DNA of 37,972 nucleotides from an uncultured Eubacteriales bacterium. GTDB taxonomy: Bacteria; Bacillota; Clostridia; Christensenellales; CALVMC01. Below, piece by piece: positions 5,159 to 23,096 of the stretch. Position numbers and translations under genes: made by a program. The notes beneath the pieces are model-generated. The model was not told where the DNA came from. It saw nothing but the letters and a program-made list of their open reading frames with translations, and did not search any database. Every line of letters starts with the position of its first letter. Within the stretch, counting starts at the first letter, position 1. The stretch lies in the NCBI GenBank assembly GCA_949296455.1, contig CASFOZ010000009.1, positions 1 to 37,972 on the forward strand, read 5' to 3'.

Positions 5159-6013
5159 TTAATTTTTATTATTCCCGAATGTGCGAGTGGCAAAAACTTC
5201 TTTCCAATAATTTTCACGGTGTCTTATGTATTCTGCATTTCCGTCGCGATTGAAAAAACTTTCTATTATCGTAAATACGAAATTATTCGCATAATCGGGA
5301 TTTTGTTCGATTAAAGCTTTTAACACAACGTCTCCTCCGTGTCCGTTTGTGTAAACATAGGCACTCCAACGTTGCCAAACTCCGTTGAAGCCGTATGTGC
5401 TGCCTATATAAACTTTGCCCGTCAGTTTGTCCGTAATGGCATAAATGCAATTTATATTTTCAAGTAATATGCGCCAATTATCCACTTTACTGCAAATAAT
5501 CGCTTTTAAGTCTTGAAAGGGCAAAGATATTTTATCGTATCCGTCAAACTGTTTATTTGTCTGCATATACTTCTTTTCCAATACCGAAACGACAGTTATC
5601 GTTTCAATATTTGAAATAATGATTTTTGCCTGTTTCGGTCCCTGTATCTTTTTATACAAAACAATCAGCCGTTCTATAAAATGAGAAAAACGATCGAGAG
5701 GTTTCAAGTTATATGTTTGGTGTCCGTCATTAAAAGAATTTACGCCGCAATTCTCATACGCACCCAAGAATAGCCATTTATCATACTTTCTGTCTTTATC
5801 TAACCGTATAAATTGCAAACAGTACTTTGTAGGAATGTTACGGAAACTTGTTGTAGAATTAGCGTGTTTTTTCCAAGAAATATGTTCGAGCAGGCGTTCA
5901 TAGTTATCATTAAAGGAATATACCTGTTCAGCATTTGCATTGTTCAAGCAAATGGTCCAATCGGCATATTCGTCTTTTGATAAATTTAGTATTTCGTTTA
6001 AGTAGATAGCCAT
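5159..6013 (-). CDS. GIY-YIG nuclease-domain protein
   Basis: A 284-aa protein. The C-terminal 95 residues are a GIY-YIG fold: CIYAITDKLTGKVYIGSTYG carries the two signature strands, then the Arg in WQRW, the GHGG turn, and the catalytic-type Glu in RENYWKEV followed by TR.FG.NKN. The first 190 residues form a separate alpha/beta domain with KWLFLGAYE and an FIERLIVLYKK helix, which I do not recognise. The start at 6013 follows GAGGG by 8 nt; a longer frame reaches 6073 but would begin beyond a terminator hairpin. GIY-YIG enzymes cut DNA in repair, restriction, homing and mobile-element contexts; which applies here is not shown. It leads a two-gene unit with the membrane protein. Confidence 0.85.
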   Translation of the reverse strand: MAIYLNEILNLSKDEYADWTICLNNANAEQVYSFNDNYERLLEHISWKKHANSTTSFRNIPTKYCLQFIRLDKDRKYDKWLFLGAYENCGVNSFNDGHQTYNLKPLDRFSHFIERLIVLYKKIQGPKQAKIIISNIETITVVSVLEKKYMQTNKQFDGYDKISLPFQDLKAIICSKVDNWRILLENINCIYAITDKLTGKVYIGSTYGFNGVWQRWSAYVYTNGHGGDVVLKALIEQNPDYANNFVFTIIESFFNRDGNAEYIRHRENYWKEVFATRTFGNNKN

Positions 6014-6032
6014 AGCAATTCCCTCTGTAAAA

Positions 6033-6062
6033 TAAAAAGTGCGCCTACCGAAGTAGACGCAC
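6033..6062 (-). terminator. Hairpin terminator or attenuator in the GIY-YIG leader
   Basis: On the minus strand GTGCGTCTAC and GTAGGCGCAC pair over 10 positions (one A-C mismatch) around a TTCG tetraloop and are followed by TTTTTATTTT. The structure (6039-6062) ends about 20 nt before the start codon at 6013, just ahead of the GAGGG. It could end upstream transcription or attenuate the GIY-YIG operon. Confidence 0.65.
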
Positions 6063-6085
6063 AAAAAACGCAAACTCCGATAGTC

Positions 6086-20772: not shown

Positions 20773-20797
20773 AAAGCCCGCAAAATATGCGGACTTT
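20773..20797 (-). terminator. Terminator between the InlB-repeat gene and the GH3 gene
   Basis: Arms AAAGTCCGCA/TGCGGGCTTT on the minus strand pair with one mismatch around a 5-nt loop, then TTTTTATTT. It sits 5 nt after one stop codon and only 20 nt before the next start, so it can also act as an attenuator of the GH3 gene. Confidence 0.75.
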
Positions 20798-20802
20798 GTT
20801 TT

Positions 20803-22371
20803 TTAAAGTGTTTTTTCTATTTCTTTTTCGTCAATTTCCTGACTCTGTTCATTGCTTGCGATAACAAACTCACGGCAGGCTTCTATAATATCCCATACTT
20901 CCTGTTCTGTACTGAAAGTACCGTCAATTACCACATCGTACCAGTTTTTGCCTTTCGGGAATCTGCTTCTGCAAACCTCAACGTGAGTCAGCGAAAGATT
21001 GTCGGCATAGGCGTCGGAACATCTGCAAACCATTTTTACAACGCCTTTTTTCTCGTAAACCATAAGATAGGTTCTGTTGTTCCAGTTAAAGCTGTTAGGA
21101 AGAATTAAGCCGGTTTTTGTTTTTTCTCTTTCGATAATGGTACAGTACTCAGGTTGAGTTTCTTTGACATAATCGGTAATTTTCTGTTTGGACATACTGA
21201 ATTCGAGTTTAATACTGTCTTTAAAGGCTTTAACCGCAGCCGTAAAGATTTTAATTTTTTCGTCGAACAGTTCGTCTTTAGTCTTTTCGTTGGCTTTGAT
21301 ATCGCTTGCAATATCGTTTTCTTCTTTTATAGCGGCAGCCTCGTCCGTTTCGTAATCGTCTTTTGCGGTATTATATGTGTAATAAAGACCTAAAACAAAG
21401 AAATACCATTCTTCGAGATAGGAATAAACTTCCCTTTTACTGTCGAAAGAGGTATCGATAACGACATCGTACCAGTATTCGCCTTTGGGGAATAAGCTTC
21501 TTACAGCCTCGTGACCCGAAGCCCTCATGTGATTTGCCATTTCCTCATTCATTCTTGCAGTGATTTTAAGAACATCTTTCTTTTCTTTGAGTAAAGCGAA
21601 GGTCCATTTGCCGCACTTTAAACTGTCGAAACCTTTATCGTTGGTTCTCTCTCTTATATCGGTCATAACAGGGAATTTATATTCGTTTTTCTTTTTCTTG
21701 GCATTAGTCTGACTGTCGCTGATAAGTTCGTAGTTCATACTTTCAACGAAGTCAAGTATATCCTGTCTTGAAATTTTAAATTTATAAGCGGGCGCATCGA
21801 GAGCGATTCTGTTATGAGTGATAACCTTCTCGACAGTTGTTGTCGTAACCTTTCTTTTAACGGTGATTTTCTGAGGTTCGCCTTTTTTCCTTACTTCCCA
21901 TTTTGCATAGACTGTAATATCTTCTTCGGGCATATATTCGAGGTCAAAAGGTTCTGTAAGGTCTCTGTCCTTGAACCACCCTAAAAATTTATCGCCTTCG
22001 TTTGTCGCTTTCGGAAGTCTGATTTTATCGCCTGCTCTGACCTTAATGGCAAGGTATTCGGTTTGCCCGTCTTCGCTTTCGTCGTCAATACTTGTTACGA
22101 TACCTCCGTTGCTTTCAAGATAAATTATATAGTAAGCCGGTTTCCATTTAGCATATACGACAAAGTCCTGCCTTGGCATATAGCAAAAATCCAGAGGATG
22201 AGCGAAATCCTCGTCGAGATACCAGCCGTCGAATAATTCAAAATCCTTAACGGGGACACTCGGTATAACAAGCAATTCTCCCGGAAGAAATTTGCTTGAT
22301 TTTATCTCTCCGCTTTCATCGTAAAGTTTACCGCCGTTTGTCTCGTAAACTATTTCGTAAGTTTTTGCCAT
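20803..22371 (-). CDS. InlB B-repeat protein with two YjbR-like domains, no export signal
   Basis: A 522-aa protein. Residues 1-75 and 85-170 are two InlB B-type (Listeria-Bacteroides) repeats, each ending YAKW after a GWY or GWF turn and a D-P-FD-YMP-D-VYAKW pattern. After a Thr/Val-rich linker come two homologous domains (about 195-345 and 390-505). Each contains (R)S.FPKG..WYDVVID..F...EV and looks like the MmcQ/YjbR fold, a CyaY-like domain thought to bind DNA. The domains are joined by an acidic helix. InlB repeats are normally on surface proteins, yet no signal peptide, membrane helix or sorting signal is seen. The start at 22371 follows GGGAGG by 7 nt. Function unknown. Confidence 0.75.
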   Translation of the reverse strand: MAKTYEIVYETNGGKLYDESGEIKSSKFLPGELLVIPSVPVKDFELFDGWYLDEDFAHPLDFCYMPRQDFVVYAKWKPAYYIIYLESNGGIVTSIDDESEDGQTEYLAIKVRAGDKIRLPKATNEGDKFLGWFKDRDLTEPFDLEYMPEEDITVYAKWEVRKKGEPQKITVKRKVTTTTVEKVITHNRIALDAPAYKFKISRQDILDFVESMNYELISDSQTNAKKKKNEYKFPVMTDIRERTNDKGFDSLKCGKWTFALLKEKKDVLKITARMNEEMANHMRASGHEAVRSLFPKGEYWYDVVIDTSFDSKREVYSYLEEWYFFVLGLYYTYNTAKDDYETDEAAAIKEENDIASDIKANEKTKDELFDEKIKIFTAAVKAFKDSIKLEFSMSKQKITDYVKETQPEYCTIIEREKTKTGLILPNSFNWNNRTYLMVYEKKGVVKMVCRCSDAYADNLSLTHVEVCRSRFPKGKNWYDVVIDGTFSTEQEVWDIIEACREFVIASNEQSQEIDEKEIEKTL

Positions 22372-22546
22372 TATATACCTCCCAAGAAGCAACTGTTACA
22401 TTCTGAATTTTTATATCATTTAATAATATACTCATATATTAGCACAATTATAAATTTATTACAAATATTTTTTTATAATAAAATAATAGGAAAAAATCAG
22501 CATTTATTTAGATTTTTAACACATTTAAAAAAAGAATACGAAATTA

Positions 22547-22571
22547 AAAAAGAGTCTTTAGGACTCTTTTT
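22547..22571 (-). terminator. Terminator of nrdDG
   Basis: A 10-bp stem AAAAAGAGTC/GACTCTTTTT with a 5-nt loop, directly after the nrdG stop codon. Confidence 0.85.
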
Positions 22572-23096
22572 TTAACCGTATACGCTTGTATTTTTAAGGT
22601 CGTATAAAATTATTTTATTGTTTTCCCGTGTTTTTTTCAAGTCTATTACCCTTTGATTCGAACTTCCTCTATAAGTCAGTTCGTAATCTTTGAGTTTTTC
22701 GACAAACCTTCCGTCGGTCAGAATATCGCATATATTTAAAAGTTCGTCGATATTTTTATCTTTTTTTTCTCTGAGTTCTTCGTATGTATATCCCGAATAT
22801 ATCATAACGCTGAGATTATACTTTTCCTTGACCTTTTTGACAAGTTCGAGCACCTTATCCGCTTGAACAAAAGGTTCTCCGCCCGATACCGTAATTCCCG
22901 AAAGAAGGGGATTTTCCCCTATATCGGAAACAATTTTATCTATGCTCTCTAACCTGCCCTTTGTAAAATCGTGGGTTTCGGGATTATGACACCCCGGGCA
23001 GTGATGCGGGCAGCCTTGCGTGAAAACGGTATATCTTATACCCGGTCCGTCTACTATGGATTCTTCGACTATACCGGCAATTCTTATATCAGACAT
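22572..23096 (-). CDS. nrdG: Anaerobic ribonucleotide reductase activating protein (radical SAM)
   Basis: A 174-aa radical-SAM enzyme that uses S-adenosylmethionine and a 4Fe-4S cluster to put the glycyl radical on NrdD. The cluster motif CPHHCPGC (C29, C33, C36) and the glycine-rich SAM site TVSGGEPF are intact. The start overlaps the last 8 bp of nrdD on the same strand, so the two are translationally coupled. Both depend on the NrdR-controlled promoter upstream of nrdD. Confidence 0.96.
   Translation of the reverse strand: MSDIRIAGIVEESIVDGPGIRYTVFTQGCPHHCPGCHNPETHDFTKGRLESIDKIVSDIGENPLLSGITVSGGEPFVQADKVLELVKKVKEKYNLSVMIYSGYTYEELREKKDKNIDELLNICDILTDGRFVEKLKDYELTYRGSSNQRVIDLKKTRENNKIILYDLKNTSVYG

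Follow-up and report, generated by a model that had tools for sequence, protein, structure and literature searches.

In the usual picture, a giant surface protein of a Gram-positive bacterium terminates in a cell-wall anchor or in a short tail regarded as inert, and the YjbR family has, to our knowledge, no proven function. In the accessible part of PMC7641849, fusions of YjbR are reported with EVE, DUF1831, TerB, GNAT and nuclease domains but not with InlB repeats or transmembrane (TM) anchors, DNA binding is favored on structural grounds, and no mention of a link with surface proteins was found. The InlB B-repeat is a beta-grasp-like module for which a ligand groove and a weak homodimer contact have been proposed (PMC8900821). 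These two domain types meet in a protein of 522 amino acids (aa) encoded in the stretch of DNA analyzed here, hereafter the window, which comprises 37,972 nucleotides of contig CASFOZ010000009.1 (assembly GCA_949296455.1) from an uncultured bacterium of the order Christensenellales. The gene occupies positions 20803-22371 and, like all features of the locus given below, lies on the reverse (-) strand. Judging from sequence comparison, the two YjbR-like domains of this protein belong to an order-wide family of tandem pairs that is inherited as a unit, and the protein itself may serve surface-protein complexes from inside the cell.

The protein begins with two InlB B-repeats, at residues 4-77 (22141-22362) and 79-159 (21895-22137), their limits being taken from a profile of our own. 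Together they reach 73.8 bits with PF09479 (cut-off 27, E 1e-20, two stretches) and 42.2 and 37.7 bits when taken singly; the region also matches TIGR02543 over the curated cut-off, and phmmer retrieves from the PDB the crystallized InlB B-repeat 2y5p (E 2e-5), a match that includes repeat 1. A linker rich in T, V, and K follows (residues 160-196, 21784-21894), which is basic (pI 10.5 over residues 166-195) and hydrophilic, whereas in many family members a membrane helix occupies that place. The YjbR-like domains 1 (residues 198-329, 21385-21780, with YWYDVVID) and 2 (residues 391-506, 20854-21201, with NWYDVVID) share the motif WYDVVID and are 31% identical to each other. They are joined by a connector at residues 330-390 (21202-21384), acidic and probably helical, the helix being seen in a low-confidence model only. 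Both YjbR domains are approximately neutral in charge, and the protein as a whole is acidic (pI 5.1).

With the Pfam YjbR model (PF04237) the protein scores 25.7 bits, under the cut-off of 30.1, but relatives in the same order exceed it (L038, 37.6; L039, 46.5; L090, 51.4 bits). A family profile made of eight YjbR-like domains, from the protein and three relatives, finds in the PDB E. coli YjbR (2fki, E 1.7e-7) and D. radiodurans DR2400 (2a1v, E 0.0075). An AlphaFold2 (AF2) model of domain 2, built from both domains of both species in which the gene occurs (pLDDT 72, pTM 0.69), has as its four best structure matches the DUF419/PF04237 structures 2a1v, 3h9x, 2fki, and 2kfp (Z 11.6 to 9.7). The modeled fold of the C-terminal domain is thus that of YjbR, and the assignment to this family is secure. 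Matches of domain 2 to SPOR and DUF459 were rejected, being under the cut-off and inside the YjbR region. With the C-terminal part as the sole query, phmmer retrieved nothing but chance matches from the PDB (VPS15), so that the family profile was required; matches to type III secretion chaperones (VIA-align, Z 4-5) were disregarded, such values being usual for common arrangements, and so was a full-length AF2 model from two near-identical sequences (pLDDT 33). The initial annotation, made from the DNA letters, had proposed two InlB B-repeats joined to two homologous WYDVVID domains resembling MmcQ/YjbR. Both identifications are borne out, and neither the domain search nor the structure prediction pointed to another fold for the C-terminal repeats.

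The same annotation had seen no signal peptide, anchor or membrane helix, and none was found here: the highest 19-residue mean hydropathy is 0.92 and there is no LPxTG. The protein has neither the signal peptide or membrane anchor that would mark an exported InlB B-repeat protein nor the TM anchor or linked surface-protein gene that would mark a surface-associated tandem YjbR protein, and no strong evidence of secretion was met. Elsewhere, InlB repeats are overwhelmingly found on exported proteins. In a survey of distinct InlB open reading frames (ORFs), 59 of 79 had a complete 5' end, and only four of these lacked an N-terminal hydrophobic segment: the 522-aa protein, its orthologue in the sister species (genome G001), L027, and L148. 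L027 is a fragment next to masked bases (a run of X) and was set aside, as was L166 with its internal stop, and the start of L148 was placed within a longer frame, which leaves the 522-aa protein and its orthologue as the sole clear cases among the complete ORFs. The location of the protein is hence probably cytosolic.

YjbR-like domains were found by profile search in 42 of 396 genomes of the order, with the strongest matches concentrated in one family (f16) and the others spread over several more; in 391 genomes of the class, matches of a pair profile were confined to the order. The architecture of 46 distinct family ORFs was inspected, with topology called from hydropathy and flanking charge only. 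Their YjbR domains mostly follow a TM helix with a net-positive C-terminal flank and are thus predicted to be cytosolic. Four forms can be distinguished. The first (a) comprises giants in which a signal peptide and a large ectodomain are followed, close to the C-terminus, by one or two TM helices and then by YjbR as the tail; its members are L089 (2623 aa), L090, L091, L093 (3806 aa), and L095, together with L092 and L098, which have open 5' ends, and the giants with YjbR behind C-terminal TM helices (L089-L093, L095, L098) range from about 1150 to 3806 aa. Proteins of the second form (b) have about 410-650 aa; they carry one N-terminal TM helix, whose C-terminal flank is usually net-positive, and then a segment, charged or coiled-coil, that leads to the YjbR pair. 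The third (c) carries three to six YjbR repeats after a TM helix (L064, L070, L096) and the last (d) consists of single odd fusions. Genes of form (b) often overlap, or start a few bases behind, one that encodes a protein with a single TM helix at its end; this linkage holds for 14/22 of them versus 7/104 control genes taken from these loci (Fisher p 1.6e-8), the control being a rough one based on naive ORF calling and hydropathy. Some of the ectodomains encoded upstream contain fn3 or MBG domains. Since fusion and adjacency agree, they point to a YjbR pair that would work beneath surface proteins.

Within this family, two further peculiarities can be mentioned. The membrane-anchored protein of L096:1855-5079 has six YjbR repeats and that of L070:1-2268 at least four, the copies within one protein often being close relatives of each other. 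Two TM-anchored YjbR proteins, L092:9738-13499 (-) and L103:3411-4889 (-), end in a uL15/L18e match (PF00828, over cut-off), which is unexpected at the end of a membrane protein.

In a tree of 87 YjbR domains (short alignment, SH-aLRT support only), domain 1 of the 522-aa protein clusters with its counterparts, the first domains, in L093, L066, L097, and L094 (SH-aLRT 92), and domain 2 comes closest, though weakly supported, to the second domains of these proteins. From this placement, the duplication appears to be old and inherited, and the pair of the 522-aa protein a family member by descent. The duplication noticed in the initial annotation thus stands, but not as a peculiarity of this protein. 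These five proteins differ in their front parts, which in the 522-aa protein are the two InlB repeats and in L093, a giant surface protein, an ectodomain with two TM helices. L094 (genome G206, 1264 aa) combines a TM helix, an InlB repeat, a divergent InlB repeat, a YjbR domain, a coiled coil, and the YjbR pair. It resembles the 522-aa protein in joining InlB repeats, one of them divergent in L094, and a pair of the same group in one chain predicted to lie on the inner side; it differs by its N-terminal TM helix, extra YjbR domain, and long coiled coil, and by its place in a row of surface-protein genes. L066/L104 (genome G067) is a bare TM helix with a YjbR pair, which of all full pairs aligned is the one most similar to that of the 522-aa protein (37% identity). 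Unlike the 522-aa protein it has a TM anchor and no InlB repeat of its own, such repeats being present in the 5xInlB/Big_3 surface protein encoded 10 bp upstream.

Two of these loci have features of their own. The gene row of G206 (L137:2-4534, L094) encodes a dockerin-TM protein, a long surface protein, a small TM protein, and then the TM-InlB-YjbR protein; the long surface protein has an InlB repeat just before its TM helix and an N-terminus that looks cohesin-like by eye, and the gene of the small TM protein overlaps the start of the next one. In L097:177-3515 (genome G344), an OLD/AbiEii-like AAA ATPase, a hemerythrin domain, and the tandem YjbR pair are found in one protein, the ATPase of which resembles several anti-phage ATPases.

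The 522-aa protein is not the only one whose InlB repeats are predicted to lie inside the cell. In the same genome, L140 (1889 aa) and L142 (1294 aa) both consist of a signal peptide, an ectodomain, one TM helix, an InlB repeat (residues 1102-1165, 49.6 bits, and 1111-1174, 43.5 bits, respectively, with PF09479), and a lysine-rich tail, and both are conserved in G001. A cleaved signal peptide followed by a single stop-transfer helix would place the repeat in the cytosol. The order TM-InlB is also seen in L147, L148, and L174 (family f6) and in L167 (f14), all 5'-incomplete and therefore less certain in topology, while in L094 (f24) the InlB repeats come just after the N-terminal TM helix. The search for TM helices combined with InlB repeats also catches ordinary InlB repeats, so that the number of its matches does not tell how many repeats lie on the inner side, and only inspected ORFs are used here. 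On this basis, inner-side InlB repeats seem to recur in the same genome and in at least two other families. In L147, L148, and L174 (genomes G129, G179, G264), the TM-proximal repeat is split by a long low-complexity insertion, of EAPAE type in L147 and L148, after which the last repeat strand (LYAKW) resumes. An intracellular use of both modules, as suggested in the initial annotation, becomes more likely because the YjbR pairs of most relatives and these recurring InlB repeats are predicted to be on the inner side.

It can be hypothesized that the YjbR pair family acts at the inner membrane face with large surface proteins, either as a fused tail or as a TM-anchored partner from the next gene, and that the 522-aa protein has two InlB beta-grasp repeats in place of the membrane anchor. 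These repeats would probably dock on membrane partners, e.g., L140 and L142 with their InlB repeat directly inside the TM helix, and the YjbR pair would then bind a cytoplasmic ligand (a protein or possibly a nucleic acid), replacing the tail or partner of other genomes. The protein would thus be a soluble adaptor or scaffold that serves surface-protein complexes from the cytosol, with InlB-InlB contacts as a possible means, a reading to which a probability of about 0.45 is given; the partner, the docking, and the nature of the ligand are inferred. Several points weigh against it. The gene stands alone, with no surface-protein gene adjoining and hence no linked partner at the locus; it is unlinked to the surface genes L140 and L142; the InlB repeat tree, poorly resolved, does not group its repeats with the inner-side ones; and the topology calls depend on the simple measures given above. 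The wider proposal, i.e., an order-wide inside-face adaptor system for giant surface proteins, with tandem YjbR and cytosolic InlB modules in soluble and tethered forms and InlB-InlB contacts under the membrane, is more speculative still and must be called rather doubtful.

The ORF starts with an ATG at 22371, preceded by a GGAGG Shine-Dalgarno sequence, and its coding sequence without the stop codon spans 20806-22371. The orthologue in the sister species is 98% identical, with 127 synonymous codon changes versus 12 amino-acid changes (dN 0.012, dS 0.64); dN/dS is about 0.02, a sign of strong purifying selection and the same regime as that of the neighboring nrdD-like gene. Given these figures, the ORF is a real, constrained gene, the product of neither chance nor decay. 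It is present in both genomes of its GTDB family, the only two in the collection. A candidate promoter, TTGTAA-17-TAATAT (22436-22464), was picked by eye in a block identical in the sister species; its 8/12 matches are below the promoter-scan threshold. A terminator-like hairpin directly 3' of the stop codon (20773-20797) is kept in G001, and a second one (22546-22572), 3' of the nrdG-like gene, sets that gene apart. The neighbors are an anaerobic ribonucleotide reductase pair (nrdD/nrdG-like) on one side and a GH3-like (beta-glucosidase) gene on the other. Elsewhere in the window, a 304-aa ORF (5159-6073 (-)) resembles by eye a GIY-YIG nuclease in its C-terminal part (YAITDKLTGKVYIGST).

The main rival to the adaptor reading is nucleic-acid binding by the YjbR pair, namely a cytosolic regulator in which the YjbR domains would be double-wing DNA binders and the InlB repeats oligomerization or protein-contact modules. 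Paired domains could read two half-sites, and the domain-2 model also aligns with DNA-bound MotA-C, albeit at a Z of 5.2, within the range of common arrangements. YjbR DNA binding is itself a structural inference in the accessible part of PMC7641849. The near-neutral domains of an acidic protein neither require nor exclude nucleic-acid binding, but most family members are membrane-tethered beside surface proteins, an odd place for a repressor, and such a regulator is considered unlikely. The same holds for a cytosolic sensor or scaffold unconnected with surface proteins, in which the pair would serve to bind ligands or proteins in general and be attached to varied parts. The ATPase-hemerythrin-pair architecture of L097 and its match to defense ATPases speak for it, as do the gene's own transcription signals and the lack of an adjoining surface gene. 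However, the soluble ATPase form is seen in just 1 of the 46 family ORFs, and the 522-aa protein matches no defense family (PADLOC). It has no PHROG match at E <0.05 either, no relative was found in viral contigs, and plasmid matches are limited to its InlB part.

Since InlB repeats are as a rule exported, they might also act outside here, the protein leaving the cell by a route that requires no signal peptide. This is improbable for a protein with no signal, TM helix or anchor, with no secretion gene recognized by eye beside its own, and with a YjbR pair that in relatives is on the predicted cytosolic side. Similarly, the order InlB-linker-YjbR pair mirrors the YjbR-tailed surface proteins minus signal peptide and TM helix, as would a remnant that has lost both and kept little function; with its low dN/dS, a gene intact in both species, and a conserved upstream block and terminator, this explanation is hardly credible.

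If the adaptor reading holds, the YjbR family would gain a testable role and the InlB repeat would not be restricted to the extracellular space. More generally, that giant surface proteins have a conserved module for the cytoplasm, whether in their own chain or from a linked gene, suggests that they are connected to a component inside the cell, for placement, assembly or signaling. A limited search of open-access papers yielded no description of surface proteins with YjbR pairs as modules on the inner side, or of inner-side InlB repeats, and this wider pattern is a more interesting result than the 522-aa protein itself. As regards known families, each C-terminal domain has the same predicted fold as, and detectable homology to, PF04237 (E. 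coli YjbR, 2fki; P. syringae PSPTO_3016, 3h9x/2kfp; D. radiodurans DR2400, 2a1v), but the members of known structure have one domain of about 120 residues each, in contrast to the two domains in fixed tandem order that are joined here to InlB repeats. The N-terminal part contains the same repeat as PF09479, TIGR02543, and 2y5p, over curated cut-offs; members are typically found on secreted or surface proteins, whereas the 522-aa protein carries no export signal. The architecture, which the initial annotation had taken to be new, is new as an arrangement of known domains, while the combination of InlB and YjbR is shared with L094 of G206.
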